Shown one piece after another: positions 7,900-44,002 of a stretch of DNA of 60,619 nt (its first letter is position 1; every line of letters begins with the position of its first letter). The notes under the pieces are model-generated. The model saw only the letters and a program-made list of their open reading frames with translations. It was not told the origin of the DNA and did no database searches. The stretch covers positions 1 to 60,619 of the forward strand of contig SLDY01000044.1 of the NCBI GenBank assembly GCA_007125005.1. The letters are read 5' to 3'. The DNA comes from Natronohydrobacter sp. GTDB taxonomy: Bacteria; Pseudomonadota; Alphaproteobacteria; Rhodobacterales; Rhodobacteraceae. Both the position numbers and the translations under genes were made by a program.

Positions 7900-9161
7900 G
7901 TCCGGATCCGCTCGATCTTTGCCCCGCAGGCCCCCAGTTTCTGTTCGACATGCTCATAGCCCCGATCAAGGTGATAGACGCGGCTCACCACTGTCTCTCC
8001 CTCTGCCGCGAGCCCCGCCAGAATCAGCGAAACCGAGGCACGCAGATCGGTCGCCATGACAGGTGCACCGCGCAGCTTCTCGACCCCGGTCACACGCGCT
8101 GTGCCGCCATGCACATCGATCTGCGCGCCCATGCGCATCAATTCCGGTGCATGCATGAATCGGTTCTCGAAAATATGCTCTTCCAGCACCGATACACCGT
8201 CTGCGGTACACATCGCGGCCATGAATTGCGCCTGCAGATCGGTCGGGAATCCCGGAAAAGGCTCTGTCGCCACGTTTACTGCCCGCAAGCGCTCGACCTT
8301 GCGAGACACGCGCAATCCGCGCGCGGTTTCAACCACCTCGACACCTGCCTCTTCCAACTTGTCTGCAAAGGCCTGCACCAGATCAAGCCGCCCGCCAAGG
8401 CATTCGACACTACCTCCCGCAATGGCTGGCGCCAGCATATAGGTGCCAAGTTCGATCCGGTCGGTCACAACAGGATGCGTTGCACCGCCAAGGCTTGCGA
8501 CACCCTCGATGGTAATGGTCGAACTGCCCTCGCCTTCGATCTGCGCTCCCATGCGCCGCAGACACTGCGCCAGATCAACAATCTCGGGCTCTCGCGCGGC
8601 GTTCTCCAGCACAGTGGTGCCTTTTGCCAGCGTCGCGGCCATCAATGCGTTTTCGGTCGCCCCCACAGATACAATCGGAAACACGAAGCGCGCGCCTTTG
8701 AGCCCGCCGGGGGCTTTTGCGTGGACATAGCCATCGCGGAGATCCAGTTCGGCCCCCATCGCCTCGAGCGCGCGCAGATGCAGATCCACAGGTCGCGCTC
8801 CGATCGCACAGCCCCCCGGCAATGAAACGATGGCATGACCATCGCGCGCAAGCATCGGCCCAAGGACCAGAATCGAGGCACGCATCTTGCGCACGATCTC
8901 GTAATCGGCGCGGTGCCCTGTCAGATCATGGCTGGAGAGCGCCAAGACCTGCCCATCCTGAAGCGCGGCCACTTCTGCGCCAAGCGACCCCAGCAATTCA
9001 GACATGGTGCGAATGTCAGACAGCCGTGGCGCATTGGTCAGCGTGAGGGGCTGATCTGTCAGCAAGGTGGCCGGCATGAGCGTGAGGCAGGCATTCTTCG
9101 CTCCTGCAATCGGTATCTCACCCGATAAGGGACCACTACCTGTTACGACTATCGCATCCAT
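7896..9161 (-). CDS. murA: UDP-N-acetylglucosamine 1-carboxyvinyltransferase
   Basis: A 421-residue MurA with the duplicated EPSP-synthase-like fold: N-terminal [19 protein letters not shown], the active-site loop [15 protein letters not shown] with the catalytic cysteine at about residue 118, and the later [11 protein letters not shown] and [13 protein letters not shown] motifs. It transfers enolpyruvate from PEP to UDP-GlcNAc, the first committed step of peptidoglycan synthesis. The cysteine is the residue alkylated by fosfomycin; a FosA-like gene lies elsewhere in the window (23910) but is not linked. Gene order murA-DUF2948-hisD with short overlaps. Confidence 0.98.
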
Positions 9162-9173
9162 CTGCTCTACCCT

Positions 9174-9335
9174 TCACGCCTTATCATTATCTTCAGCCCG
9201 ATCCGGCGCACTGCGCGCACGGGCCTGTAGCTTGCGCTTGGCGATATTCGCTTTCAGCGCAGCTTTCAACCGCGCCGCGCGTGCGCCTTCGGCGGATTGC
9301 ATCTTCTCGTCGCGCTTGTCGTTCTTGGCACTCAT
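9174..9335 (-). CDS. Small highly charged hypothetical protein (53 residues)
   Basis: ATG at 9335 opens a 53-codon frame ending at TGA (9174-9176), 12 bases upstream of murA. It starts MSAKNDKRDEKMQSAEGARA and continues with a Lys/Arg/Ala-rich helix (ARLKAALKANIAKRKLQARA), so it should be a basic amphipathic helix with no cysteines or membrane segment. Its placement directly before murA on the same strand supports a real short gene. I recognise no function. DNA/RNA binding is only a guess from the charge. Confidence 0.65.
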   Translation of the reverse strand: MSAKNDKRDEKMQSAEGARAARLKAALKANIAKRKLQARARSAPDRAEDNDKA

Positions 9336-9419
9336 GCGCTTGTCCTAGCGCAAGAATGAAAAACCGTCCAGATTGGGCTTGCGCGACGCGCGATTTCCGA
9401 CTACTCAGCCGCGCATCGG

Positions 9420-9494
9420 GCTGCTGTAGCTCAGGGGCAGAGCACTCCCTTGGTAAGGGAGAGGTCGAGAGTTCAAATCTCTCCAGCAGCACCA
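9420..9494 (+). tRNA. tRNA-Thr (GGT anticodon)
   Basis: Acceptor arms GCTGCTG / CAGCAGC, D-arm AGCTCAGGGGCAGAGC, anticodon stem CTCCC/GGGAG enclosing loop TTGGTAA (anticodon GGT, reading ACC/ACT), and T-arm with GTTCAAATC. The 3' CCA is encoded. It stands alone between murA and the flavocytochrome gene. Confidence 0.96.
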
Positions 9495-9547
9495 TCCATC
9501 AGTTATGCCCCCAACAAGCTTGCAAAGGCATCAGCGCGGCGTTCTGC

Positions 9548-10993
9548 TCAGAAACTCAGCGCGAACCCTGCCACCGCTGCTGTCAAAGCGACCCCGATGC
9601 CAAGAATGTTTCTTGAACGGGCGCGATCCTGACGTGAGCTTGCGCCACCTGCATAATCGAAACGTTCGTAAACCACGTTCTGCATTGGCATACCCAGATC
9701 AAGCAGCATGTCAGAGACCGCGACAACCATCGGGCCAGGGCCACAGAGCAGCGCCTTTGAGTGCGCAGGATCCAGCCCCTCCAGCATGGATGACAGATGC
9801 TCCCGGCTCAATCGGCCGAGGGTCATGTCTGCTTCCAGCGGAGGATCTTCGCTCATCAACCAGAGCTTCAGATCAAGGCTGTTGGCAGCCGCGCGCAACT
9901 CCTCAAGACAGGCAAAATTCGCGGGCTGCCCGACAGCATAGGCCAGCCGGACTGGCCGTGTTTCACCGCGCGCGACCATATCGCGAATGATCCCCAGCAG
10001 CGGCGCAATCCCGACACCACCGCCAAAAAGCAGATATGCCTGCGCGGGATGCGCCTGGGTGGTGAATTCACCATAGGGCCCATCAATCCCGATCACGCGA
10101 CCTTCCGGCAAATGACCGATCTGATTGGTAAAATCGCCAGCCTCCTTGATCAGCAAGCTCAATCCAGGGCGCTGCGGGCTGTCGGCAATGGAAAACGGGT
10201 GATCGAACAGCGGAAACCGTCGCTTGCCTTCGGTCATCCAGACGAACTGGCCAGCAAAATAGTCCATTGCAGGGGTCCCGGGGGCAGGCTGGATATCCAG
10301 TTCCCACATCCGCTCAGCGCGCTGCCTGATCGCCGCAAGCCGCCATGGCCTGCGATGCAGGAGCCACCACCGCCAGCCATAAAGCACGCCAATCACAGTG
10401 ATCACGCCCAGTGCTGTGGCGCCCCAGAACCACGCCAGTGCGCCATCAGCACTGAACCGGCCAACCGCCCATGCGTGATGCAACCCTGCAAGCACGGCAA
10501 GCGCCCCCAGTAGCAGATGGGCCAAGCGCCACGCCTCATAGGGCCATGGCAGCCAGTCGCGCAAGATGGAGCTTATGATCATCACGAGCACAGAACTCAG
10601 CGCAATGACACCAGTGCGATAGGCGGGATCCGTGAGGTAGAAGCGCAGCCGTATCCAGCCCAGATCCGGATTATCGAGCCATGTGGGAAAGACATAGGCA
10701 AGCGGGTGGAGGACCAGAGCGAGTGCCAACCAAGACGCCGCGAATTTATGGAACGCCATGATCTTGTCGATCCCGAGCTGGCCTGACACAGCCTCGAACC
10801 GGCCCGAGGTCACGAATTGCACGGCCATCCCCCAGAGCGCAATCACCCCCATCGCTGCGGCTGCATATTCCCAAGCGTCCATCGGAGCGGCCGAAGTTAA
10901 ACGCGCCAGCAAAAGCGGGATGAGCGCCGTGAGCAGATACGCGGCGGCGAGCGCCTTGCCACTGAAGCGGGGAAGAGGGTTATGCGGTGTCAT
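9548..10993 (-). CDS. Ferric-reductase-like transmembrane flavocytochrome
   Basis: From ATG 10993 the protein is 481 residues. The first ~215 residues hold about six membrane helices. Two histidine pairs spaced 13-14 residues (about H82/H96 and H159/H172-173) match the bis-heme b sites of ferric reductases and NADPH oxidases. A cytosolic ferredoxin-reductase module follows, with the FAD motif HPFSIA (265-270), the NAD(P) loop GGGVGIAP (about 324-331) and CGPGPM. Unusually, a further hydrophobic helix closes the C-terminus (ILGIGVALTAAVAGFALSF). It should carry electrons from NAD(P)H across the inner membrane. It is divergent from the pentaheme cytochrome gene, a plausible partner. The exact acceptor is unknown. 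Confidence 0.85.
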   Translation of the reverse strand: MTPHNPLPRFSGKALAAAYLLTALIPLLLARLTSAAPMDAWEYAAAAMGVIALWGMAVQFVTSGRFEAVSGQLGIDKIMAFHKFAASWLALALVLHPLAYVFPTWLDNPDLGWIRLRFYLTDPAYRTGVIALSSVLVMIISSILRDWLPWPYEAWRLAHLLLGALAVLAGLHHAWAVGRFSADGALAWFWGATALGVITVIGVLYGWRWWLLHRRPWRLAAIRQRAERMWELDIQPAPGTPAMDYFAGQFVWMTEGKRRFPLFDHPFSIADSPQRPGLSLLIKEAGDFTNQIGHLPEGRVIGIDGPYGEFTTQAHPAQAYLLFGGGVGIAPLLGIIRDMVARGETRPVRLAYAVGQPANFACLEELRAAANSLDLKLWLMSEDPPLEADMTLGRLSREHLSSMLEGLDPAHSKALLCGPGPMVVAVSDMLLDLGMPMQNVVYERFDYAGGASSRQDRARSRNILGIGVALTAAVAGFALSF

Positions 10994-31886: not shown

Positions 31887-32147
31887 CACTCGGTCAGCTT
31901 GGGGAGGAAGCCATGGCCTGAGGTGCGTAAGCACTGTCGTCACAGATGTTCGAAAATGTCCGCTCAGCTGGTCTGATGTGGTGCGGTGATGGGAGTTGCG
32001 CTGCTGTTGCACGATGCAAGCGCTTCAGAGGCTACACCCGTCGAAAACACACGTAAAAGCGAAGTTCAGGTTTTGCTTTCGCGTAACGCGCGAGTGTTGG
32101 GAGAAAACCGCGCGAATAACAACTTTGACTGCAACAGGAGGAAACCA

Positions 32148-33374
32148 ATGAAACAAGACTTGTCCGGCATCTCACGCCGTGATTTTCTGCGCGTCACCAA
32201 GCGCTTCGGGATGAGCTCCACCTTGCTTGCCCTGGGCGGGCTGACGGGTGTTGTCACGCTGCCACAATTGGCGAAGGCGGCGGAATCGACCTATGAAAAG
32301 CGCTGGAACAAAGAGGCGCGCCACACGCTTCGTTACGGGGCTGCGGGCTTCAACCTGCGCAACCTGATGATCGAGCGGAACGGCATTCTTGAATTTGTGC
32401 GTGATCTGGAAGAGCGCACTGACGGTGAGATCCGTATCGAGTTTATCGGTGACAATCAGATTTGTGGCCAGCTTGATTGTGTGTCCAAGACGCAGGAAGG
32501 AATTGTTGATCTCTATTCTGCCTCGACCCAAAACTCTGCCGGGGGTGCGCCCTATCTGAACGTCCTGGACTACGCCTATATGTTCCCCAGCCGCGCCGCG
32601 CAGTATCACTTCTTCTACAATCCCGAAAGCAACGCCATTTTCCGTGAACCGCTCGAGCGGATGCACGGGATCAAGTTCCTCTTCACGCATTGCGAATTGC
32701 GCGGCATCATGCTGGGCAACACTTGGCGCGACAGGCCCACAGTGACCAGCGTGACCGAAATTGCAGGCACTCGTAACCGCGTGACCGGTACGCAATTGGG
32801 CCGCATTGCGATGGAGTTGATGAACCTCAACCCCACGCCGATCGCTTGGGAAGAAACGCTGGATGGTCTGCGTCAGGGCCTGATTGACGGGGCGGAAACA
32901 TGGGCCTCGGCTGTGGCATATGCGAATATGTCGCCGGTCGTGTCGCAATGTATCGACCTGCGCTTCTTCTGCGGAACAGAGCATACCGCGATGTCAGCCA
33001 GCAGCTTCGACAAGCTGGAAGGCGATTTGCAGGATGCGGTGATGGAATCCTCCTATCTGGGGCAGATCGCGGCGCAATATGCCAATGAGGCGGCGCTTGT
33101 AAATACAGTCGGCTTCTCTGACCCGCAGAAAGAGGGTACGATTTTCGCAGAACATGGCGTGCGCAACGCGTTCCTGACTGCCGAAGCACGGCGCGAAGCA
33201 GAAGAAATGTGCTCGCCAGAGTTCGTTCCCGGACCGTGGGAGCAATGGCGCGAGCGTATCAACGGCTGGGCGGGTGGCATTGACACCTATACCGAAATCC
33301 ACCGTATCGCGCGCGAGATTCCGGAAGATATGCTGGCCGAGAACGTCGAGCCACGTCGCTGGTGGCGCGGTTAA
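32148..33374 (+). CDS. TRAP transporter substrate-binding protein (DctP family)
   Basis: A 408-residue protein from ATG 32148 (AGGAGGAAACC upstream). A twin-arginine signal, SRRDFLRVTKRFGMSS, lies at residues 9-24, followed by a hydrophobic stretch ending at LAKAAES. The mature part has the DctP fold (RIEFIGDNQICGQLDCVSKTQEGIVDLYSAS, VTGTQLGRIAMELMNLNPTPIAW, the conserved arginine region). It captures an organic acid or similar ligand in the periplasm. The Tat signal is less common for this class. A 12-bp stem-loop follows before dctQ. The ligand is unknown. Confidence 0.93.
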   Translation: MKQDLSGISRRDFLRVTKRFGMSSTLLALGGLTGVVTLPQLAKAAESTYEKRWNKEARHTLRYGAAGFNLRNLMIERNGILEFVRDLEERTDGEIRIEFIGDNQICGQLDCVSKTQEGIVDLYSASTQNSAGGAPYLNVLDYAYMFPSRAAQYHFFYNPESNAIFREPLERMHGIKFLFTHCELRGIMLGNTWRDRPTVTSVTEIAGTRNRVTGTQLGRIAMELMNLNPTPIAWEETLDGLRQGLIDGAETWASAVAYANMSPVVSQCIDLRFFCGTEHTAMSASSFDKLEGDLQDAVMESSYLGQIAAQYANEAALVNTVGFSDPQKEGTIFAEHGVRNAFLTAEARREAEEMCSPEFVPGPWEQWRERINGWAGGIDTYTEIHRIAREIPEDMLAENVEPRRWWRG

Positions 33375-33386
33375 CCTCTTTGTAGA

Positions 33387-33417
33387 TTTGCGCCCGGGTG
33401 ATGTGCCCGGGCGCAAA
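33387..33417 (+). other. Strong stem-loop between dctP and dctQ
   Basis: TTTGCGCCCGGG and CCCGGGCGCAAA form a perfect 12-bp stem with loop TGATGTG, starting 13 bases after the dctP stop. No T-run follows. Such hairpins usually raise the stability of the binding-protein message relative to the permease genes. Confidence 0.85.
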
Positions 33418-33519
33418 GCTTCGCTGGTTAAACAACGGTTTTCAAAAAGACAACATTCCCGACCTACACCAGCATTTCCATGCTGGGCGGGCAGTCATGC
33501 AGTATGAAGCAGGGCCAAA

Positions 33520-34188
33520 ATGCAAGAAGTTCTTACAGGAATATCGGCCATCTGGGACGCGGTACAATCGGGTCAGCCGTGGGCCATGCGTACAGCAATG
33601 CGCGACCCGTCACTTTACTGGCTGATCGCCTTTATAACCCTGCCGCTCTCATTCGTTCTGATGATGCTGTTCCGGCGCGTAAAACTGCTGGACAGATACT
33701 TAGAGCCCACGGCGATGTTCTTCATCTATATGACCATCGCGATGATCATTTTTGTCGAGGTTATTCGCCGGTTCGTATTCAATGTGCAGGCACCGTGGTC
33801 AACGACCTTGCCTCCATATCTCTTTCTGCTCCTGACGTGGATTGGATGCGCCTATAACGTCAAACTGCGGACGCATCTGTCTTTTGGCGAGGTGCGCGCG
33901 ATGATGCCTCCAACGGGACGTCTTGCCATGTCGTTCCTTGATGCGCTGCTGTGGTACGCCATGGCCGTTATCGTCATCGTTGCGACATTGCGTCTGACCG
34001 TCAACTCCGCTTCGAATTTCCAGTTTCTGCTGGGTACGGACAATGTGATGCGCTGGTGGTTCTACATCTGCGTGCCAGCGTCCTGGGTTGTCCTGTATGC
34101 CCGCGTGTTGGAAAACCTGCTACAGGACATTCGTAATTATCGTGCCGGTCAGGAATTCGGTCTGACCAATGATCTGGCCCGCGAATAG
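33520..34188 (+). CDS. TRAP transporter small permease (DctQ)
   Basis: A 222-residue membrane protein with about four to five helices. It has the DctQ-type region VIRRFVFNVQAPWSTTLPPYLFLLLTWIGCAYNVKLRTHLSFGEVR, which contains the conserved tryptophan and charged residues. It carries an N-terminal extension before the first helix (SLYWLIAFITLPLSFVLMMLF). It partners the large permease downstream (gap 12 bases). Confidence 0.92.
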   Translation: MQEVLTGISAIWDAVQSGQPWAMRTAMRDPSLYWLIAFITLPLSFVLMMLFRRVKLLDRYLEPTAMFFIYMTIAMIIFVEVIRRFVFNVQAPWSTTLPPYLFLLLTWIGCAYNVKLRTHLSFGEVRAMMPPTGRLAMSFLDALLWYAMAVIVIVATLRLTVNSASNFQFLLGTDNVMRWWFYICVPASWVVLYARVLENLLQDIRNYRAGQEFGLTNDLARE

Positions 34189-34200
34189 GACAAACACGCC

Positions 34201-35544
34201 ATGACACTGTTTTTCTCACTTGCGGCAACAGCGCTCTTCATCCTTGGTGTCCCTATTTTTCTGGTCATCGGCCTCTGGGTCGTGGCGATGAGTTTCGTTG
34301 TTGGCCTGACGCTTGATAACATCGGCTATGCGTTCTCGGCTGTATTCACCACCTCTTTCGCCCTGCTGGCGATGCCGCTTTTCATCCTGACAGGTGATCT
34401 GATCAACCGTTCGGGGATTGCACATCGCCTATCTGCATTTGCATATGCCTGCCTCGGCTGGCTGCGCGGCGGTTTGGGCATGGCCAGCATTGGCGCGTGC
34501 GGATTGTTCGCGGCGATCTCGGGTTCAAACTCGGCCACAACGGCAACGATCGGTGCGATGATGCACCCCCGGATGGTCAAGAACGGATTCGACGAGCGAT
34601 TTGCAGCGGCGACAGCCGCCGCCGGCGGCACTGTCGGTATCATCATTCCGCCCTCGATCATCTTCATCGTTTACGGGTTCTTGATGAACCTGTCGATTTC
34701 AGAGTTGTTTCTGGCAGGGATTCTTCCGGGGCTGCTGATGGTGCTGGGCATGCAGCTAGCTTGCTGGATCGTGTGCCGCCGCAACGGCTGGGGTCATCTG
34801 ATCCGCTGGGAAATCACCCGCATGATCCGCACGGCCTTTGGTGCATGGCTTGGCTTCTTTGCCATTGGCCTCGTTCTGTGGGGCATCTACACCGGAAAGT
34901 TCTCGCCGACCGAGGCAGCCGGGGTCACAGTCGGGTTCTGCATACTCGTGGCGCTGATCTCTCGCCCGTTTTACCTGCTGATCAACAAAGGCAAATCTGA
35001 AAACGAGGATCTGACACGCACCCCGGGCTGGGTAGAGATGGTGCTGGTCGAAGGATTCCGCGTGCGCGATCTGCCGGGCGTCGTGCTGAATTCGGCACGC
35101 ATTGCGGGCATGCTGGCGCCATTGATCGGGATTTCTGTGGTCATGCAGCAAATTCTGTCACTTTTGGGCGCAAAAGAAGCGATTGAGGCCTTTTTGACAG
35201 GGTTTGGTGGTTACTTTGCGGTACTGATCATGTGCATGGCGTTTGTTTTCATTGCCGGCATGGTACTGGAAAGTCTGCCGAACACCATCATCATGGCCCC
35301 CATTCTGGCCCCCATTGCAGTTGGTGTGGGCGTGGATCCTGTGCATTTTGCCGTGATTTTCCTGATTGGTGGCTCGATTGGCTTCATCACGCCGCCTTAC
35401 GGGCTGAACCTTTACGTCGCAAGCGGTGTAACAGGGGTACCATATATGCGGCTGCTCCCTTATATCGTGCCTTATCTGATTGCCCTGATCGCGGTCTGGT
35501 TCGTGGTGGCCTTTGTCCCATGGCTATCACTCGCCCTGACCTGA
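34201..35544 (+). CDS. TRAP transporter large permease (DctM)
   Basis: A 447-residue protein with about twelve membrane segments. Conserved DctM motifs include GMASIGACGLFAAISGSNSATTATIGAMMHPRMVKNGFDERFAA, GTVGIIIPPSIIFIVYGFLMNLSI, SPTEAAGVTVGF and GGSIGFITPPYGLNLYVASG. It provides the Na+-coupled translocation pathway. Last of the dctPQM genes. The IclR gene begins 35 bases later. Confidence 0.95.
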   Translation: MTLFFSLAATALFILGVPIFLVIGLWVVAMSFVVGLTLDNIGYAFSAVFTTSFALLAMPLFILTGDLINRSGIAHRLSAFAYACLGWLRGGLGMASIGACGLFAAISGSNSATTATIGAMMHPRMVKNGFDERFAAATAAAGGTVGIIIPPSIIFIVYGFLMNLSISELFLAGILPGLLMVLGMQLACWIVCRRNGWGHLIRWEITRMIRTAFGAWLGFFAIGLVLWGIYTGKFSPTEAAGVTVGFCILVALISRPFYLLINKGKSENEDLTRTPGWVEMVLVEGFRVRDLPGVVLNSARIAGMLAPLIGISVVMQQILSLLGAKEAIEAFLTGFGGYFAVLIMCMAFVFIAGMVLESLPNTIIMAPILAPIAVGVGVDPVHFAVIFLIGGSIGFITPPYGLNLYVASGVTGVPYMRLLPYIVPYLIALIAVWFVVAFVPWLSLALT

Positions 35545-35579
35545 AGCTGCGCCCGGGGCCTGAAAAAAGAGCGCAACAT

Positions 35580-36359
35580 ATGCGGCATCAAACCAGAACC
35601 CCGGGCGCCCCCTCAGAGCGCATCCCCACAACGCTGCGACTGCTGACGCTGCTTGAAGAAGTCGTAAGCCGCGGAGCGCCTGTCACACCGACTGAACTCA
35701 TCAGCACCACCGATTTGCCCAAGGCAACGCTGCACAGACTGTTTCAGACACTGGAATCAGAAGGCTATCTGCAGCGCGAACCTGATGGCCGTACCTTTAC
35801 TGTCGGCGCGCGCTCACGCCAGCTTGCGGTTGCGACAATGTCAAGCCAGCGGATGCGCACACCACGCCTCGCAATCATGCGCGCACTTGCCAAGGATACC
35901 GGCGAAACCTGCAATTTCGCGATCCCCGATCGCGAAGCGATGCTCTATCTTGATCGTGTCGAGACCGAATGGCCGCTCAGGGTACAGTTTTCCGAAGGCG
36001 CACATGTACCATTCTACTGCACGGCGGGGGGCAAGCTCTATCTTTCGACTCTGAGCGATCTGCGTCTGGACAGTTACCTTCGTAACGCCGATCTCAAGCC
36101 GCTGACACCCAACACCCTCACCAACCCTGATGCTCTGCGTGCCGAGATTATGAAAATCCGCGAGCAGGGGTATGGAGTTGACAACGAGGAGTTTCTTGAA
36201 GGGGTCATCGCCTTTGCCATGCCTCTCCGAGACAAGTACGGGCGCATGCCCGCGACAATCGCCTTTCAGGGACCAACGCAGCGCATCACGATCGAGCAGG
36301 GATACAAGTATCTCCCGCGGCTCAAACAAGCCGCCGAAGAATTATCCGCACTTTTGTGA
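35580..36359 (+). CDS. IclR-family transcriptional regulator
   Basis: A 259-residue IclR protein from ATG 35580. An N-terminal winged helix-turn-helix (TTLRLLTLLEEVVSRG..TPTELISTTDLPKATLHRLFQTLESEGYLQRE) is followed by the IclR effector domain (YLDRVETEWPLRVQFSEGAHVPFYCTAGGKLYLS, GYGVDNEEFLEGVIAFAMPLRD). It lies 35 bases after dctM on the same strand, so it probably belongs to the TRAP operon. It likely controls the TRAP and GMC genes from the GAAACT half-sites. An earlier in-frame ATG at 35520 overlaps dctM and has no good ribosome-binding site. Confidence 0.92.
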   Translation: MRHQTRTPGAPSERIPTTLRLLTLLEEVVSRGAPVTPTELISTTDLPKATLHRLFQTLESEGYLQREPDGRTFTVGARSRQLAVATMSSQRMRTPRLAIMRALAKDTGETCNFAIPDREAMLYLDRVETEWPLRVQFSEGAHVPFYCTAGGKLYLSTLSDLRLDSYLRNADLKPLTPNTLTNPDALRAEIMKIREQGYGVDNEEFLEGVIAFAMPLRDKYGRMPATIAFQGPTQRITIEQGYKYLPRLKQAAEELSALL

Positions 36360-36380
36360 TCTGCCGGCGACTACAAAAAC

Positions 36381-36457
36381 TGGCGATCCCGGAAGGACTC
36401 GAACCCTCAACCTGCCGATTAGAAGTCGGCTGCTCTATCCAGTTGAGCTACGGGACC
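36381..36457 (-). tRNA. tRNA-Arg (TCT anticodon)
   Basis: Read on the minus strand: acceptor GGTCCCG / CGGGATC, D-arm AGCTCAACTGGATAGAGC, anticodon loop with TCT between GCCGA and TCGGC, T-arm GAGGGTTCGAGTCCTTC, discriminator G and encoded CCA. It decodes AGA. It separates the TRAP/IclR block from the BHAC cluster. Confidence 0.95.
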
Positions 36458-36570
36458 GCTGCAGGCGTTTATCGTCCTTACGCGCAGATTTGCAAGCATC
36501 TGCAGCGAATATCTCGCCCATTAACGTCCATCACGCAACAGATGAACATGTCAGAGCAGCCCCCAGATAT

Positions 36571-37533
36571 TCAGAAATCAATTTCCTGAGCCAGACCGCT
36601 TGCAATGGCCAGCTCCACAGCTTTTGAGGCCACTGCCAGATCCTGTAACCCCACACCTGTCCCATCGAACAAGGTCACCTCATCAGCACTGGAGCGGCCG
36701 GGATGCGTGCCATTGATCACAGCCCCAAGTTCGCGGATAGCGCTTTCATGCAACAGGCCAGCCGCAACCGCGTGCTGCGCCTCGCCGATGGAGATGGATT
36801 GCGCCACTTCATCGGTAAAGACAGCCGCGCGCGCAAGGAGGTCTGACGCAACCTCCTGCTTGCCCTTGGTGTCTGTTCCCATGCAGGCCAGATGCGTGCC
36901 CGGTCTGATGTGCCGATCCTCGATGATCGGCTCGAAACTTGAGGTGATGGTGATGATCACATCTGCCTCGGCACCAAGCTGATCCAGTTCGACCGCCTCG
37001 AAGGGTAATCCCAGCTCTGTTGCAGTGTCTTCCAGCCGCGTGAGCATTTCGGGATGCAGATTCCAACCGATCACTTTCTCGAACTGGCGTTGACGCACAG
37101 CTGCACGCATCTGGAAGGTGCTCTGATGCCCGGCCCCAACCATCCCCAGCACCTTCGCATCCGCACGTGCCAGATACTTGATCGAGAGGCTCGAGGCTGC
37201 GGCAGTGCGCAGCGCAGTCAGCAGATTGCCACCGACCATCGCCGTAGGCTTGCCGCTTTCAGGATCAAACAGATAGACCGTGCTCTGGTGGTTCGGAATC
37301 GCGCGCGCAGCATTGCCGGGGAAATAGCCCCCGGCCTTTACCCCCAGAATACCCCCAACCCGATCAAGGCCCGATTTGAACCCATATTGCCGCCCCTCCC
37401 CCAGCGCTTCACGCACAACAGGGAAGTTATAGGCATCTCGCCGCGCCATTGCCGCAAAGCAGCCCTCTATCGCCTCGAAGGCAGACTGCTCATCAACGAG
37501 GCCGGAAATGGCGGATTCTGGGACAACCCACAT
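36571..37533 (-). CDS. bhcD: Iminosuccinate reductase, beta-hydroxyaspartate cycle
   Basis: A 320-residue ornithine-cyclodeaminase/mu-crystallin-fold protein with the NAD(P) motif VLGMVGAGHQSTFQMRA, GILGVKAGGYFPGN and TITSSFEPIIEDRHIRPGTHLACMGTDTKGKQE. Its place directly after bhcC and with bhcB/bhcA identifies it as BhcD, which reduces iminosuccinate to L-aspartate with NADH, regenerating the amino donor of the cycle. ATG 37533 has a GGAG site. Sequence alone would only say ornithine cyclodeaminase family; context gives the name. Confidence 0.93.
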   Translation of the reverse strand: MWVVPESAISGLVDEQSAFEAIEGCFAAMARRDAYNFPVVREALGEGRQYGFKSGLDRVGGILGVKAGGYFPGNAARAIPNHQSTVYLFDPESGKPTAMVGGNLLTALRTAAASSLSIKYLARADAKVLGMVGAGHQSTFQMRAAVRQRQFEKVIGWNLHPEMLTRLEDTATELGLPFEAVELDQLGAEADVIITITSSFEPIIEDRHIRPGTHLACMGTDTKGKQEVASDLLARAAVFTDEVAQSISIGEAQHAVAAGLLHESAIRELGAVINGTHPGRSSADEVTLFDGTGVGLQDLAVASKAVELAIASGLAQEIDF

Positions 37534-37562
37534 CGGGCAGACTCCTTCATGATGGAATAACC

Positions 37563-37584
37563 AGCGGCCCCATCAGGCGCCGCT
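37563..37584 (-). other. Stem-loop between bhcC and bhcD
   Basis: AGCGGC (37563-37568) pairs with GCCGCT (37579-37584), with some extra inner pairs, in the 66-base gap between bhcC stop and bhcD start. No T-run. A mild intercistronic processing or attenuation element is possible. Confidence 0.4.
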
Positions 37585-37599
37585 GTCGTTTTCAGTCGC

Positions 37600-38763
37600 T
37601 CAATACGCCTTGCCGCGAGCAGAAACCGGCCAGAGTGTTTCCACCTTGTCGCCACGCACACCCACATACCAGTCATGAACATTGCAGGTCGGATCACAAT
37701 GCCCCGGCACGAGCTTGAGCTTCTCATTCACTTTCAGAACATTACCGGGGTCTTCAACGACTCCATGCTCGTCTGAACATTTCACATAACGAACATCGTC
37801 GCGGCCATAAATGACTGGCAAACCGCTATCGACCGACTGCGCCTTGAGCCCCGCATCAACAATCGCCTTACCGGGTTTGGCGCGGCTCATCACCGAGGTC
37901 AGGATAAACAGCGCATTCTCCCATTCACCCTGGTCGATCCGATTGCCATCCTTGTCGAGGATGCGCCCATAATCGGCATCCATGAACGCGTAGGAGCCGC
38001 ATTGCAACTCATTGTAAACGCCTGATGTGCTCTCGAAATAATAGCTGCCAGTGCCACCGCCACCGACAATATCACACTCCAGCCCCTCGGCCTTCAGCGC
38101 CTCGACGGCCTCGCGCACCATGGCGACAGCCACATCGATCTTGGCTTTGCGGTCGTCATAATTGTCCATGTGCTGCATCGCGCCCTGATAGGCTTGCAAC
38201 CCTGCGAATCTCAGCCCCGCTGCCGCGTCAATCGCCTTGGCGATCTCCACCACAGCTTCGGTGCTTGTAACGCCGCAGCGTCCGGCACCGCAATCAATCT
38301 CGACCAGACATTCGATCTCGGTGCCATGCTTGACCGCAGCCGCTGACAGATCCGCAACATTGGCCAGATCATCCACGCAGCAAATCGTACGCGCCCCCAG
38401 TTCGGGCAGCCGTGCCAACCGGTCGATCTTGGCCGGGTCACGCACCTGATTTGAAACGAGAACATCCTTGATCCCACCGCGCGCGAACACTTCGGCCTCG
38501 CTCACTTTCTGGCAGCAGACCCCACAGGCACCGCCAAGTGTCTCTTGCAGTTTCGCAACATCAACCGATTTATGCATCTTGCCATGCACGCGGTGGCGCA
38601 TCCCATGCGCCTTGGCATAATCGCCCATCTTGCGGATATTGCGCTCCAGCGCATCCAGATCGAGGATCAGGCAGGGCGTCTGAATATCGGCCGCATCCAT
38701 CCCCGGCAATGCTGGCACATCGTACCCCACTTCCAGCCCATCGAATTTTGCAGGTGCATTCAT
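37600..38763 (-). CDS. bhcC: Beta-hydroxyaspartate aldolase
   Basis: A 387-residue D-threonine-aldolase-like, fold-type III PLP enzyme from ATG 38763 (GAGGAG upstream). The PLP lysine is in VHGKMHKS (about K62). GGGGTGSYYFES binds phosphate, and the C-terminal VPGHCDPTCNVHD carries the divalent-metal His and Asp. In the BHAC it joins glycine and glyoxylate to erythro-beta-hydroxyaspartate. Family identity is clear; the specific substrate is assigned from the bhcABCD neighbourhood. Confidence 0.95.
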   Translation of the reverse strand: MNAPAKFDGLEVGYDVPALPGMDAADIQTPCLILDLDALERNIRKMGDYAKAHGMRHRVHGKMHKSVDVAKLQETLGGACGVCCQKVSEAEVFARGGIKDVLVSNQVRDPAKIDRLARLPELGARTICCVDDLANVADLSAAAVKHGTEIECLVEIDCGAGRCGVTSTEAVVEIAKAIDAAAGLRFAGLQAYQGAMQHMDNYDDRKAKIDVAVAMVREAVEALKAEGLECDIVGGGGTGSYYFESTSGVYNELQCGSYAFMDADYGRILDKDGNRIDQGEWENALFILTSVMSRAKPGKAIVDAGLKAQSVDSGLPVIYGRDDVRYVKCSDEHGVVEDPGNVLKVNEKLKLVPGHCDPTCNVHDWYVGVRGDKVETLWPVSARGKAY

Positions 38764-38774
38764 TATCTTGCTCC

Positions 38775-39746
38775 TCAGCCCTTGATCCATGGCAGCGTGT
38801 CAAGATCGACATTGCCGCCGGTAATAATAACCCCGACCCTTTTACCAGCAAAAATCTTGCGGTTCTTCAGGATCACTGCCAGCGGCACGGCGCAACTCGG
38901 CTCGATCACTATCTTCATGCGCTGCCATGTCAGCTTCATCGCATCAATGATCTCCTGCTCGCTCGCGGTTAGGATATCGGTCACATGGTTGCGCACGAAA
39001 TGCCATGTCAGCTCCTTAAGCGGCACTTTCAGCCCATCCGCTACAGTTACTGGCGCATCATCGGCAATGATATGGCCCGCCTTGAAGCTGCGACAGGCGT
39101 CATCGGCCTGTTCTGGCTCGGCCGCATATATCTCGACATGCGGGGCAATGCTGGAGAGCGTCAGACAGGTCCCGGAAATCATGCCGCCGCCGCCAATCGG
39201 AGCAATCACCGCATCAAGCCCGGAAACCTGCTCCATCAACTCTTTCGAACATGTGCCCTGCCCCGCGATCACACGCGCATCATTATAGGGGTGAACAAAC
39301 TCCGCGCCGGTCGCATCCTGCACCTGGGCAAAGACGGCCTCGCGCGATGTGGTAGAGGGCTCGCATTCGGTGATGATGCCCCCATAGCCGCGCACGGCGT
39401 CCTTCTTGGCCTGCGGCGCCGTGCGTGGCATAACCACATGGCAGGGAATGCCACGCCGCCCGGCAGCGTAACTCAGCGAGAGCGCATGGTTCCCGCTCGA
39501 ATGCGTCGCCACCCCGCGCGCGGCCACCTCATCAGAGAGGCCAAAGACGGCATTCGAGGCCCCGCGCACCTTGAATGCACCTGCCTTCTGAAAGTTCTCG
39601 CATTTGAAAAACAATTCAGCCCCGCTCAAGCTATTGAAATAGCTCGAGCTCAGCACGGGTGTGCGGTGAATATAGGGGGCGATACGCGCATGAGCGGCCT
39701 CGACATCCTCATAGGTCGGGATGGTCGTATCAGTCAGATCCTTCAT
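38775..39746 (-). CDS. bhcB: Beta-hydroxyaspartate dehydratase
   Basis: A 323-residue fold-type II PLP enzyme of the threonine-dehydratase/serine-racemase group. The PLP lysine is in AGAFKVRGASN (about K59), followed by THSSGNHALSLSYA and the glycine loop APIGGGGMISGTCL. In the BHAC it removes water from beta-hydroxyaspartate to give iminosuccinate. Placed between bhcA and bhcC; the stop lies 11 bases before the bhcC start. The start has a GGACAGGGAG site that directly follows a copy of the dispersed repeat. Confidence 0.95.
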   Translation of the reverse strand: MKDLTDTTIPTYEDVEAAHARIAPYIHRTPVLSSSYFNSLSGAELFFKCENFQKAGAFKVRGASNAVFGLSDEVAARGVATHSSGNHALSLSYAAGRRGIPCHVVMPRTAPQAKKDAVRGYGGIITECEPSTTSREAVFAQVQDATGAEFVHPYNDARVIAGQGTCSKELMEQVSGLDAVIAPIGGGGMISGTCLTLSSIAPHVEIYAAEPEQADDACRSFKAGHIIADDAPVTVADGLKVPLKELTWHFVRNHVTDILTASEQEIIDAMKLTWQRMKIVIEPSCAVPLAVILKNRKIFAGKRVGVIITGGNVDLDTLPWIKG

Positions 39747-39756
39747 CTCCCTGTCC

Positions 39757-39816
39757 TTTCATCCTTGAAAAATATCCCGGGGGAGTCGCGCAAAGCGCGG
39801 CGGGGGCAGCGCCCCC
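39757..39816 (-). repeat. Dispersed intergenic repeat, copy 4 (between bhcA and bhcB)
   Basis: In the bhcA direction: stop codon, then at once GGGGGC-GCT-GCCCCC (39802-39816), a GCGC stem, CCCCC and GGATATTTTTCAAGGATGAAA. It has the same order as copy 1, including exact abutment to the stop codon. Here it is inside an operon, so it cannot be a complete terminator. It may tune bhcB expression. Confidence 0.7.
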
Positions 39817-41007
39817 TCACGCCGCTGCTGAAAGCTCCGCACCGGTGCTCTGGCGCAAATAATCCTGCGCAGCGGCCAGTCCCGAACCGAGCCGGACCTG
39901 CCAGCCAAGATCGGCCATACACATCTCTGCCACAGCCAGCCCGGAAAGCAGCATTGCGTCAGTCAGCAGACCCAAGTGACCGATCCGAAACACTTTTCCA
40001 GCCACTTCCCCAAGCCCGACACCAAAGGCAATGCCGTATTTTTTCGCTGCAAGCTGCACTAGGTCAGTGCCGTTGAAACCTTGCGGCACCCGCACTGCGG
40101 TCACTGTGTCGGAATAGAGTTCGGCGCGAACAGCGCAAGGGCACATGCCCCAGCCCGCAACGGCACGGCGCGTCGCCTCGGCATAGCGCGCATGGCGCGC
40201 ATAGACTGCCTCAAGCCCTTCCTCCTCCAGCATCTCGATGGATTTCGCAAGCCCCGCGATCAGCCCGACCGGGGGGGTGTATGGATAGCCGCCTGCCGCG
40301 TAAGAGCTTGTCATATCACGGAAATCAAAGAAGGTGCGCGGCAGGGCCGCGCTCTTCATCGCTTCAGCGGCTTTGGGCGACACGCCAAGGATCGCCAGCC
40401 CCGCAGGCAACATGAAGCCTTTCTGCGAGCCTGCCACAGCGATATCAACACCCCATCCTGCCATATCGAATGGCATCGATCCAATGGATGAAACCCCGTC
40501 GACAAAGAGCATCGCATCATGCCCGCTGTTATCCAGCGCGCTCCGAATGCCCGCGATATCCGAGCGGACGCCTGTCGCTGTTTCGTTATGAGTTGCCAGC
40601 ACTGCCTTGATTTTCCTTGAGGAATCGGCACGCAAGGCTGCTTCGATGGCGCCGAGCGGAGCGCCCTCCCCCCAAGGGGCCTCGATGATCTGCACATTCA
40701 GCCCATGCCTCTGGCACAGGTCAATCCAGCGATGGCTGAACATTCCAAAGCGCGCGGCCAGCACTGTATCGCCGGGCGAAAGTGTATTGGAAACAGCAGC
40801 TTCCCACCCGCCGGTCCCGGTCGAAGGCAGGATGATCACCTCACCTTCGTCCATATTAAGCACCCTGCGCACGCCTGCTACGGCTGGCCTGAACAGTTTT
40901 GCAAAAGCGCTGGAGCGGTGATCAAGCGTAGGGATATCGCAAGCTTTGCGAATTTCCTCAGGGATATTCGTCGGGCCGGGGATAAATACCGGATTTTGCA
41001 GGGACAT
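39817..41007 (-). CDS. bhcA: Aspartate-glyoxylate aminotransferase
   Basis: A 396-residue class V aminotransferase, similar to serine-glyoxylate aminotransferase. It starts SLQNPVFIPGPTNIPEEIRKACDIP, has GEVIILPSTGTGGWEAAVSNTL, LFVDGVSSIGSMPFDM and the PLP lysine in VAGSQKGFM (K196). BhcA transaminates glyoxylate with aspartate to glycine and oxaloacetate, the entry and exit step of the BHAC. A strong AAGGAGGAG site precedes the ATG. First gene of bhcABCD and divergent from bhcR. Ends exactly at repeat copy 4. Confidence 0.95.
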   Translation of the reverse strand: MSLQNPVFIPGPTNIPEEIRKACDIPTLDHRSSAFAKLFRPAVAGVRRVLNMDEGEVIILPSTGTGGWEAAVSNTLSPGDTVLAARFGMFSHRWIDLCQRHGLNVQIIEAPWGEGAPLGAIEAALRADSSRKIKAVLATHNETATGVRSDIAGIRSALDNSGHDAMLFVDGVSSIGSMPFDMAGWGVDIAVAGSQKGFMLPAGLAILGVSPKAAEAMKSAALPRTFFDFRDMTSSYAAGGYPYTPPVGLIAGLAKSIEMLEEEGLEAVYARHARYAEATRRAVAGWGMCPCAVRAELYSDTVTAVRVPQGFNGTDLVQLAAKKYGIAFGVGLGEVAGKVFRIGHLGLLTDAMLLSGLAVAEMCMADLGWQVRLGSGLAAAQDYLRQSTGAELSAAA

Positions 41008-41075
41008 CGGGAAAACTCCTCCTTGATTTCAGGAAGATGCCAGCTTCCCTCTGCCAACACAATTTTTTTGAAATA

Positions 41076-41148
41076 TTTTTTTACATCGTGAAAAAATAAC
41101 AGTAGAATTTGATCTGGAAGCGTTTTTTGTTTTTCAAATGATGAAAAA
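41076..41148. promoter_or_regulatory. Two TGAAAAA-type inverted repeats between bhcA and bhcR
   Basis: TTTTTCA-AATGA-TGAAAAA (41130-41148) is a perfect 7-bp inverted repeat. A related TTTTTACATCGTGAAAAA lies at 41078-41095 (arms of A/T runs with GTG/CA centre). The 171-base divergent gap is A/T-rich, unlike its neighbours. BhcR in Paracoccus binds the corresponding gap, so these are the best candidates for its operators and for control of bhcABCD. Confidence 0.6.
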
Positions 41149-41178
41149 ACATTTCGCCTGTCAGAAAAAGGTGATCCG

Positions 41179-42003
41179 ATGGCCGAATCCAGGTCCCGCG
41201 GGCGCCCACGCGCCTTTCAGGACAAGACCGAACAGAACACTGTCCAGTCACTCGACCGGGCGCTGTTGATCCTGCAGGTGCTGGCGCAAGGCAATGGCCT
41301 GACGCTGACCGAACTCGCACAGGAAGCCGGACAGTCGCCGGCGACTGCCTATCGCGTGCTTTCCACCTTTCAGAGCCACGGCTTTGCAGAACTGGATCCC
41401 GGCGCGCAACGCTGGCATATCGGGGCGGGTGCGTTCCGGGTTGGCTCGGCTTTCTTGCGGCGCACGCAACTGGCAGAGCGCGCAAGGGGCGCGATGCAGA
41501 TGCTCATGCGCGAAAGCGGCGAGACGGCCAATCTTGGGATCGAGGAACGCGGCGAGGTGCTATTTCTGACGCAGGTCGAAACCCATGAGCCGATCCGTGC
41601 TTTTTTCCCGCCGGGCACGCGCAGCCCGATGCATGCTTCGGGTATCGGCAAGGCCCTGCTCGCCTATATGCCGATACCACAATTGATCGAGTTATCCATG
41701 CGCGGGCAGCCGGGCTTCACGGCACATACATTGACCGATATCAGCATGCTGGAGCGCGACCTGATCCGGACACGCCAGCGCGGCTTTGCGATCGACAACG
41801 AAGAGCGCACGGAAGGTATGCGCTGCATCGCTGCACCGATCTTCAATGCGCATGGCGAGGCAGTTGCGGGTTTATCTATTTCGGGACCGGTCTTCCGGCT
41901 CACACTGGAGCGGGCGGAAGAGATGGGGACGCTCGTGAAGGATGCCGCAAAAAGCGTGACGGATGCGACTGGCGGGGTTATGCCCCGCCCGCGCAAAGTC
42001 TGA
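41179..42003 (+). CDS. bhcR: IclR-family regulator of the beta-hydroxyaspartate cycle
   Basis: A 274-residue IclR protein with a basic N-terminal tail (MAESRSRGRPRAFQDKTEQ), winged helix-turn-helix (QSLDRALLILQVLAQGNGLTLTELAQEAGQSPATAYRVLSTFQ), and effector domain (IRAFFPPGTRSPMHASGIGKALLAY, GFAIDNEERTEGMRCIAAPIFN). Its divergent position next to bhcA identifies it as BhcR, which senses glyoxylate in Paracoccus. A GGTGATCCG site precedes the ATG. It is a different protein from the IclR at 35580. Confidence 0.94.
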   Translation: MAESRSRGRPRAFQDKTEQNTVQSLDRALLILQVLAQGNGLTLTELAQEAGQSPATAYRVLSTFQSHGFAELDPGAQRWHIGAGAFRVGSAFLRRTQLAERARGAMQMLMRESGETANLGIEERGEVLFLTQVETHEPIRAFFPPGTRSPMHASGIGKALLAYMPIPQLIELSMRGQPGFTAHTLTDISMLERDLIRTRQRGFAIDNEERTEGMRCIAAPIFNAHGEAVAGLSISGPVFRLTLERAEEMGTLVKDAAKSVTDATGGVMPRPRKV

Positions 42004-42032: not shown

Positions 42033-43397
42033 TCAGTTCCCGCGCACTGGGTGGATGCGACCACGGCCCATGTTGTTTTCCATCGGCGCATCGCAGGAGC
42101 CGACATTCACGTTGGTACGGCCATTGATAACATCTGCGATCATCGACGCCCCGCTGCCCGACATACTCGCATTGGCTTGAAAATTGATTGTGCCGGCGGC
42201 AACCATCTGAGCGCCATTCACTGTGAGTTTGGCTGGGAAAAACATGCCACCAAGAGTTATGATCTGCGTTCCCACACCTGCCTCGCAGCCTTGATTTGAG
42301 CCAAAGCGCGCGCCAGATGACCCGCGAATGGATTGTGCCGCTGTCGAAGTTGTCGCCACGATCGACTCCTCCACCGCCGCGCCATTCCCGAACCGAAGCG
42401 AGCAATTGGTGACAAGCACGATATTTCGCAAGACGAGATTGTTGGGGATGACCAGCGTTCCGCCGTTCTGCGCACATGTCACATGAGGGATGTATCCCGA
42501 ATAAAAGCTAGACGCATCCACATCCTGCGCGGAGAGTTCAAGGACGACAGGCGAAGTGATGTAGCTGGGGATTTTATCGGACTGGGAATCTGTCAGTGCG
42601 GCGATTGTCTGGGGAAGATCGTCGATAAAAGCGAGATCGATGGTGTTTTGCTTTACAGCTTTGGACAGGCCAGGGTTCCCCGCCATGGAACCACCCGGAA
42701 CATCTAGATTGTTCAGATCGGGGAGCGAAACGATTTTGCCGTCCTCGAAGGTGTTATTCTGCCGCAACCAGATTGAACCATTCGAGTGAAGGCAAAGCCC
42801 CTCCTCAAAGTGGTTGTTTGAATTGAATCTGATCTCCGTCCTCGCGACGAAAGCGTTCGACAAGCACGGATCGGAAGTCTGGCTGAAGATCGTCTCACTG
42901 GCGAGTTCCCACGCATTTCCATTCGAAAGGCGCAACAAGTAAGTCGGCACAGCGCTCCCTCGCGAGACTGTCATGCGCGGTGTCACTCTGACGCTGCTGC
43001 GCGACCCTGATTGTTGAACAAACGTGTTGCCTGTGGAACTCCATGTCCCAAACTGTATATCCTGTGCCAGAAAAACAGTGCCGTATTGTTCAATTGGCAT
43101 GTTCTGATGCGCGACAACAAGTGCCAACGCGATCGCATCCGCTTCGGACATCGTGCGCCGCGCATGCATCGCGGCGTGCGCGACAGAATCGGTTGTCATG
43201 TGGAGGCGCGTGATCTTGGCCGTCCGGTTCATGACATCCAGCGCAAGCCCGCCAACCAGTGCCAAGGCGACCAGAAAGAACAATGCAAAAAGGGTGATTG
43301 TGCCTCCCTCTTCGCGCCAGAACAGCCCCACGCGCCAAAAGCCTCGTTTTGGGAGGCTTGACTGACGAAGACGCTTGGGTGTGTTCCTGATGCGCAT
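42033..43397 (-). CDS. TadG-like pseudopilin-type protein
   Basis: From ATG 43397 this is a 454-residue protein with a short basic N-terminus and one membrane helix (GGTITLFALFFLVALALVGGLALDVMNRTAKI) of the TadE/TadG (Flp-type) kind. The following helix has ARRTMSEADAIALALVVAHQ. The large rest is low in charge and rich in Asn/Ser/Gly/Val strands (GGTLVIPNNLVLRNIVLVTNCSLRFGNGAAVEESIV), suggestive of a beta-solenoid-like surface domain. No other tad genes are seen except the TadE-like gene just upstream. A TTG at 43412 is an alternative start. Convergent with bhcR. Confidence 0.75.
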   Translation of the reverse strand: MRIRNTPKRLRQSSLPKRGFWRVGLFWREEGGTITLFALFFLVALALVGGLALDVMNRTAKITRLHMTTDSVAHAAMHARRTMSEADAIALALVVAHQNMPIEQYGTVFLAQDIQFGTWSSTGNTFVQQSGSRSSVRVTPRMTVSRGSAVPTYLLRLSNGNAWELASETIFSQTSDPCLSNAFVARTEIRFNSNNHFEEGLCLHSNGSIWLRQNNTFEDGKIVSLPDLNNLDVPGGSMAGNPGLSKAVKQNTIDLAFIDDLPQTIAALTDSQSDKIPSYITSPVVLELSAQDVDASSFYSGYIPHVTCAQNGGTLVIPNNLVLRNIVLVTNCSLRFGNGAAVEESIVATTSTAAQSIRGSSGARFGSNQGCEAGVGTQIITLGGMFFPAKLTVNGAQMVAAGTINFQANASMSGSGASMIADVINGRTNVNVGSCDAPMENNMGRGRIHPVRGN

Positions 43398-43507
43398 TTC
43401 TTTTTGGTCCAACAGGATGAGATCAGAAAAACCGTGGCAAGATGTTGCTTTTGATCGGCTCCTTCACTGCCCTGATTCACTCCTTGTCTTGCAAACGTAT
43501 AATTTTC

Positions 43508-44002
43508 TTAAAATTCTGCGAGATGGGTTGCTGATATCCGAATGTCGAAATCAGGAAGGAAGTTCAGCGCGCCAATCGCTGTGAGTTGTTGCGACGGGAT
43601 CACCATTTCTGTGGTGATCAAACCATTGTTGATATTCGGTATCGGCGTAGAAAGGTTTGCCATCAGGCCGGGCAAGCGGTCGGTCATGAACTGGGCAACG
43701 GCAGCTGTGTTTCCTGCATCTATCATCTGGAAGGAAATGCTGCGGTTGAGATCCTGCACGGCCCGAAGGATTTGCGCCTTGTTGTAAAGGATCATCGACG
43801 CATCAACGAGCAGCAGGAAAAACGCCAGCAAAAGCGGTATCCAAATCGCAACCTCGACGGTCGCGGTTCCGCTCTCGTCTTCGGACAGCTGTAGCGCCAG
43901 CTTTCTCGATTTTTCACGATACGAAGGCACGCTTTCGCCACTGCACTCGTTCGACTCGGAGGGCCATTTCTTGATGCAGTAATTTACTTTTAATATGGGC
44001 AA
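43508..44002 (-). CDS. TadE-like pseudopilin-type protein
   Basis: A protein of up to 164 residues with one membrane helix preceded by a polar leader: ESGTATVEVAIWIPLLLAFFLLLVDASMILYNKAQILRAVQDLNRSISF, the classic TadE signature (E at +5, long helix). The start is uncertain: a TTG at 44002 gives 164 residues, and a GTG at 43927 gives 139. It lies about 110 bases upstream of the TadG-like gene. It lacks the ATPase, secretin and prepilin-peptidase genes of a complete tad cluster nearby, so assembly must use machinery elsewhere or the pair is non-functional. Confidence 0.7.
   Translation of the reverse strand: MPILKVNYCIKKWPSESNECSGESVPSYREKSRKLALQLSEDESGTATVEVAIWIPLLLAFFLLLVDASMILYNKAQILRAVQDLNRSISFQMIDAGNTAAVAQFMTDRLPGLMANLSTPIPNINNGLITTEMVIPSQQLTAIGALNFLPDFDIRISATHLAEF

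Follow-up and report, generated by a model that had tools for sequence, protein, structure and literature searches.

The window, which is the whole stretch of 60,619 nucleotides (nt) analysed here from Natronohydrobacter sp. (contig SLDY01000044.1), almost certainly carries a complete beta-hydroxyaspartate cycle (BHAC) operon, bhcABCD, together with the divergent regulator gene bhcR. The cluster itself is ordinary and of a known kind. The control region between bhcR and bhcA, more than the metabolic finding, is the interesting part of the locus, and the added value lies in its proposed two-operator architecture and in helically phased candidate operator pairs that recur elsewhere.

The bhc gene cluster

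The enzyme genes are contiguous and co-directional on the minus strand, and the regulator gene lies divergently on the plus strand (positions are those of the window).

36571-37533, minus strand: bhcD, iminosuccinate reductase, 320 amino acids (NCBIfam NF045643; match to 6RQA)
37600-38763, minus strand: bhcC, 3-hydroxy-D-aspartate aldolase, 387 amino acids (NCBIfam NF045642; match to 6QKB; GAGGAG 5' of the start)
38775-39746, minus strand: bhcB, beta-hydroxyaspartate dehydratase, 323 amino acids (NCBIfam NF045641)
39817-41007, minus strand: bhcA, L-aspartate--glyoxylate aminotransferase, 396 amino acids (NCBIfam NF045640)
41179-42003, plus strand: bhcR, IclR-family regulator, 274 amino acids, divergent (NCBIfam NF045644)

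An earlier note, made from the letters of the window alone, had placed four minus-strand genes and a divergent IclR gene here; open reading frames (ORFs) were found at those coordinates and strands, and the gene families that it named agree with the Pfam matches (OCD_Mu_crystall, Ala_racemase_N with D-ser_dehydrat, PALP, Aminotran_5, and HTH_IclR with IclR_C). All five reading frames are unbroken. The longest ORF of bhcC (37600-38790, minus strand) overlaps bhcB, and its start was taken as 38763 rather than 38790 because the ribosome-binding-site-like GAGGAG lies upstream and the resulting N-terminus, MNA..., is that of 6QKB.

The cycle was reportedly first described in a 2019 paper. BhcA transaminates glyoxylate with aspartate as amino donor, yielding glycine and oxaloacetate; BhcC condenses the glycine with another glyoxylate to give 3-hydroxyaspartate; BhcB removes water to form iminosuccinate, and BhcD reduces this to aspartate, which re-enters the cycle. 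The four enzymes of the window would carry out the same steps. The net outcome is one oxaloacetate from two glyoxylate with no release of CO2, as stated in the study of BhcR in Paracoccus denitrificans (PMC11323563, cited throughout for its available parts).

All five proteins exceed the cut-offs of the curated NCBIfam equivalog models, namely BhcA with 691.6 bits (cut-off 650), BhcB with 605.3 (550), BhcC with 771.8 (690), BhcD with 566.9 (500), and BhcR with 395.6 (350), which bears out the assignment of the set to bhcR/bhcABCD in the earlier note. Among solved structures, BhcC best matches the D-3-hydroxyaspartate aldolase 6QKB (711 bits over 387 residues) and BhcD the iminosuccinate reductase 6RQA (448 bits), both of which we take to be from P. 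denitrificans. A point that weighs against the assignment is that the solved relatives of BhcA and BhcB are all distant, the nearest being the serine-glyoxylate aminotransferase 6PK1 (370 bits) and the probable serine racemase 6LUT (328 bits). Protein alignments of 70-81 sequences each, the window's own counted, show no window protein departing from a column conserved above 97%. The motifs GSQK (at 193 in BhcA), FKVRGA and GGGG (at 58 and 185 in BhcB), HGKMHK, PGHCDPTCN, and GAGHQ are intact; we take all of them to be cofactor or active-site motifs, with GSQK presumably the lysine site for pyridoxal phosphate (PLP).

It is highly improbable that the genes are chance neighbours encoding a serine-glyoxylate aminotransferase, a threonine dehydratase, a D-threonine aldolase, and an ornithine cyclodeaminase of the ordinary kind. 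The Pfam superfamilies would be the same for such enzymes, but the equivalog scores already contradict this reading, the R-A-B-C-D order and the strands of the genes found are identical in 80 of 80 loci of relatives, and the same-genome paralogues are distant. The nearest aminotransferase paralogue of BhcA is 44% identical over a long stretch, and the dehydratase-like paralogues of BhcB are 35% and 30% identical over long stretches, with two shorter weak matches besides. The earlier note had proposed to check how the proteins group: the family models accept all five, and trees, run for BhcA and BhcB alone (78 and 82 rows, midpoint-rooted, with very long outgroup branches), place both window proteins beside the nearest relative, L001, with the same-genome paralogues apart from the Bhc rows. 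Membership in other class V aminotransferases or PLP enzymes was ruled out by the family models, the paralogue identities, and the trees.

The paralogue 35% identical to BhcB lies in the window itself (4200-5195). It is a second PALP-family dehydratase, and its best NCBIfam model, threo-3-hydroxy-L-aspartate ammonia-lyase, scores 320.1 bits, below the cut-off of 452.

Two candidate operators between bhcR and bhcA

The gap between the two divergent genes holds two candidate operators, O1 and O2, each composed of three boxes, and two predicted promoters.

41034-41062, minus strand: predicted bhcA promoter, TTGTGT (41057-41062), 17 nt, CATCTT (41034-41039)
41069-41093, minus strand: candidate operator O1, bhcA-proximal, TTTCA-N5-TAAAA-N5-TTTCA, next to the predicted bhcA -35
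41080-41108, plus strand: predicted bhcR promoter, TTTACA-17-TAGAAT, with the -35 overlapping the middle box of O1
41132-41156, plus strand: candidate operator O2, bhcR-proximal, three-box site 63 base pairs (bp) from O1

O1 and O2 each differ by one mismatch from TTTCA-N5-TGAAA-N5-TTTCA, a series of half-sites of alternating direction with a 10-bp period. The pattern was examined in 69 intergenic regions, comprising the window and 68 relatives that have both bhcR and bhcA; these regions are related to one another, and 59 remain after removal of near-duplicates. With at most one mismatch, TGAAA-N5-TTTCA occurs in 60 of the 69 regions (mean 3.0, maximum 6, in 20 dinucleotide shuffles) and TTTCA-N5-TGAAA in 41 (mean 2.9, maximum 7, in dinucleotide shuffles). 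At least one alternating three-box array (10-bp step, up to two mismatches) was found in 49/69 regions, or 40/59 without near-duplicates, compared with a mean of 0.13 and a maximum of 1 in 15 shuffles.

The spacing of the two sites recurs as well. The count started from a more permissive anchor, present in 63 of the 69 regions, which fixes the proximal TTTCA at offset 0 and leaves the box at -63 free; an exact TGAAA stands at -63 from the bhcA-proximal anchor box in 39 of these 63 regions and a smaller distal peak at -83 in 14, and 30 shuffles of the upstream parts never gave more than 4 at any offset. The best distal array (up to three mismatches) was present in 44 of the 63 regions, at -83 in 23 and at -81 in 9, and the interval between it and the start of bhcR is variable. 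In the conservation profile of the region, the AAATTG anchor columns are conserved by construction and 13 anchorless rows of the 69 were left out.

Several observations count against a universal two-site design. Both three-box sites (up to two mismatches) occur in only 12/69 regions; the Paracoccus row, L080, shows no three-box site at this threshold and stands outside the anchored set; and further distal TGAAA boxes are placed at -61 in 9 regions and at -100 in 8, which makes the 63-bp spacing common but short of universal. A second operator is well supported for the relatives of the window, and the support becomes weaker further off because both arrays appear in those 12 regions only and neither appears in the Paracoccus row.

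For the bhcA promoter, a -10 element 17 nt past a TTG-type -35 that follows O1 is suggested by the regions taken together, with A at position 2 in 50/59, T at position 1 in 37/59, and T at position 6 in 34/59; the match in the window itself is weak, and the promoter scan did not pick it out as promoter-like. The predicted bhcR promoter agrees with the consensus at 10 of 12 positions, and the scan gave 4 promoter-like sites in 36200-41300 against a shuffle mean of 2.0.

Paired arrays elsewhere in the genome and genus

The genome from which the window comes (2.83 Mb in 157 contigs, 99.96% complete, with the window as contig C85) contains 23 hits to the three-box pattern at up to two mismatches, two of them in the bhc region, and the reversed control gave none. 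Scattered pairs stand at C69:2087/2140, C79:19971/20034, C111:22049/22111, C124:5973/6026, C110:20996/21049, C135:5193/5267, and C64:9315/9378, and in the loci L114-L142. Across 120 genomes searched at up to one mismatch, 15 of the 37 genomes of the genus (the present one included) have at least 5 hits, and none of 35 genomes from other genera of the family has more than 2. Genomes from other families of the class (48) have up to 7 hits each; the pattern alone means little there because their reversed controls reach 6.

A total of 29 loci were inspected, 9 from this genome and 20 picked by us among the matches listed, of which 10 had a pair visible beforehand and 10 had a single hit only. A partner array (up to three mismatches, 25-200 bp away) was found in 20 of the 29, and the spacings are all 52, 53, 62, 63, or 74 bp; such arrays are rare in the rest of the same loci, with 2 in 112,543 bases, which amounts to an expectation of about 0.006 per partner-search stretch. 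Neighbourhoods linked by blastp of mechanically called ORFs have spacings of 53/53/63/62, 53/53/63, 74/74/52, and 63/63/53/63, and two further locus pairs agree in spacing (63/63 and 53/53). The paired sites stand 5, 6, or 7 helical turns apart, and spacing in matching neighbourhoods differs by whole turns. In 17 of the 29 loci, the 3' end of a mechanical ORF lies inside the element or within 60 nt of it. One pattern site in a genome of the same genus (L143) adjoins the gene of a different IclR-family regulator. A mobile repeat is disfavoured as the source of the scattered pairs, since their spacers, judged by eye, have no common sequence. A literature search on scattered paired elements returned nothing relevant.

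BhcR as the probable reader of the boxes

Among the literature listed for BhcR, one primary study names it as the regulator of this cluster. In P. denitrificans, BhcR activates bhcABCD, yet its binding in vitro is weaker with glyoxylate, and gel shifts place it on the bhcR-bhcA region (PMC11323563). The available text describes a single potential palindrome, located upstream of the bhcA -35, and proposes a second site upstream of bhcR as a hypothesis. The ligand pocket of the window's BhcR agrees with 8 of the 9 residues in Table 1 of that study (manual count, one-residue shift allowed). IclR position 143, likewise counted manually, is proline instead of threonine, the effector domain reading ETHEPIRAFF in the window and ETHETIRAFF in the Paracoccus relative L080.

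We infer that BhcR is the protein that binds the O1 and O2 boxes. It would occupy both of these three-box sites, which are separated by six helical turns. O1, abutting the predicted bhcA -35, would be suited to activation of bhcA and, by overlapping the predicted bhcR -35, to autorepression; O2 lies between the predicted bhcR promoter and the bhcR start codon. It is unlikely, on present evidence, that the boxes of this gap are instead read by another IclR-type or global protein. The many hits elsewhere in the genome and the site beside a different IclR-family gene in L143 speak for such a reader, but across the window and the 80 bhc loci (1.50 Mb in all) 76 hits fall in bhc control regions and 5 elsewhere, with none in the reversed control; L021, a locus without bhcA, accounts for 2 of those 5, both in its bhcR-bhcB gap, and the published gel shifts put BhcR itself on the corresponding region.

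The reading with BhcR bears on a question of the 2024 study, in its available parts, namely how BhcR activates bhcA in vivo yet binds DNA less with glyoxylate in vitro. A pair of conserved sites, commonly spaced by 63 bp, would give a physical form, directly testable, to the published two-site model of BhcR.

A bolder proposal, which we consider speculative and quite unlikely to hold in full, joins the two sets of observations. The bhc region would carry a family-wide ancestral paired operator, its two sites kept whole helical turns apart and bridged by tetrameric BhcR or a close paralogue; the pair would have spread through part of the genus, often to the 3' ends of genes, and a genome-wide role in DNA looping would now fall to BhcR or to a regulator with similar specificity. 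If the same protein does bind the scattered pairs, a pathway regulator would have turned into a genome-wide looping factor.

Sources and uses of glyoxylate in the genome

The genome has a single copy of bhcC. The glycolate oxidase genes glcD, glcE, and glcF are adjacent on contig C4, and GlcF exceeds its curated cut-off; what weakens this call is that GlcD (457.5 bits, cut-off 567.9) and GlcE (265.8, cut-off 284) both fall below theirs, so the assignment rests on the adjacent glcDEF arrangement. Oxidation of glycolate to glyoxylate in this organism is plausible from these genes. Crotonyl-CoA carboxylase/reductase and malate synthase G also exceed their cut-offs, and glyoxylate would come from glycolate through glcDEF and perhaps from the ethylmalonyl-CoA pathway too.

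Models of isocitrate lyase and of RuBisCO gave no matches in the genome, and a link to RuBisCO and phosphoglycolate was discarded. No protein passed the glyoxylate carboligase cut-off (best hit 327 bits, cut-off 711.2); that hit scored 1126.8 bits as the large subunit of acetolactate synthase, above its own cut-off of 974, and the glycerate pathway was set aside as an alternative. Among the routes searched, none but the BHAC is a dedicated net route that runs on glyoxylate alone; glyoxylate can also be used by malate synthase, together with acetyl-CoA.

Assimilation of glycolate or glyoxylate through the BHAC is the best reading of this gene content, because glycolate oxidase genes are present and carboligase, isocitrate lyase, and RuBisCO are unmatched or below cut-off; the proposal of the earlier note that the organism assimilates these compounds in this way gains support accordingly from the genome. 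A genuine BHAC might instead serve mainly to drain internal glyoxylate, from the ethylmalonyl-CoA pathway or from purine and glycine breakdown, rather than growth on external glycolate. We regard this as improbable: crotonyl-CoA carboxylase/reductase, malate synthase G, the unmatched RuBisCO models, and the low scores of GlcD and GlcE would fit it, but glcD, glcE, and glcF stand side by side with GlcF over its cut-off, and in P. denitrificans, where glycolate and glyoxylate induce the BHAC and growth on them needs it, deletion strains of bhcR and of bhcABCD lose that growth (PMC11323563). For assimilation as the preferred reading, the enzyme activities and the growth phenotype of the cluster are predicted from gene content, orthology, gene order, and genome context.

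Distribution among relatives

A scan with BhcC, using one genome per species, confirmed at least 592 stretches, and the best 80 by BhcC similarity were kept as loci. The nearest among them (L001-L009, 94-89% identity) are Rhodobacteraceae metagenome-assembled genomes (MAGs), Natronohydrobacter, and Roseinatronobacter, which we take to be soda-lake lineages. Among the 80, bhcA was found in 78, bhcB in 80, bhcD in 78, bhcR in 69, and the full five in 66. The loci without bhcD (L006 and L016) and one without bhcA (L004) are all at contig ends. In L021 (Rhodovulum adriaticum, 7961-9977), bhcB comes next after bhcR, a perfect three-box array separates the two, and no match to bhcA was found within 21 kb. 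The regulator gene is missing from 11 loci. Contig ends truncate six of them; in the remaining five (L014, L044, L045, L052, and L070) no match to bhcR was found upstream of bhcA in the 1.8-7.9 kb present, and three of these five are titled Marivita.

More broadly, BhcC matches 193 of 295 genomes of the family at E <= 0.001 and exceeds the cut-off in 126, compared with 3 and 0 of 14 control genomes. Homologues of bhcC match 546 plasmid records, 107 of them at 80-90% identity, and the gene can therefore be plasmid-borne; the 15 plasmid matches listed are from Sulfitobacter, Pseudosulfitobacter, and Leisingera.

Neighbouring genes

A tRNA-Arg gene (TCT) at 36381-36457 lies directly past bhcD in the same direction; among 18 relatives scanned, several with short flanks, it was seen beside bhcD in L001 only. 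The TRAP transporter genes dctPQM and a second IclR regulator gene (31986-36359, plus strand) converge on bhcD. The transporter (31986-35544) and the second IclR gene were left out of the system after tblastn of the 80 loci, because dctP and dctQ had no match beside bhc and dctM matched in 10/80 loci at only 25-39%; the flank of L001 is too short to judge the linkage in the nearest relative. On the other side, two Tad/TadE-like pilus proteins (42033-44002), one with DUF7867, adjoin bhcR.

Comparison with known systems

The locus shares with the BHAC of P. denitrificans the four enzymes, the regulator, the divergent arrangement, and the co-occurring glycolate oxidase genes. The organism is different, being nearest by BhcC to Rhodobacteraceae MAGs, Natronohydrobacter, and Roseinatronobacter, and a known carbon-saving glyoxylate pathway is placed in one more genome near these lineages. 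The glycerate pathway, which employs glyoxylate carboligase, likewise carries glyoxylate into central metabolites; unlike the BHAC, it releases CO2 (PMC11323563), and its carboligase is below cut-off in this genome.

The control regions differ as well. The window has a second three-box site 63 bp from the first, whereas the palindrome described for P. denitrificans in the available parts of PMC11323563 is a single one upstream of the bhcA -35. Operators of three boxes in alternating direction have been described for the IclR family (Suvorova and Gelfand 2021, PMC8222616, as far as its available text goes), and the candidate operators of the window share with them the alternating boxes, the A/T-rich half-sites of TGRAA/TTYCA type, and the positions at helical turns. 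The tandem sites in that survey are separated mostly by 18-22 nt, and distances of three and four turns are over-represented too. Unlike them, the bhc pair is 63 bp, or six turns, apart, and the pairs elsewhere in the genus are spaced by about 53, 63, or 74 bp.

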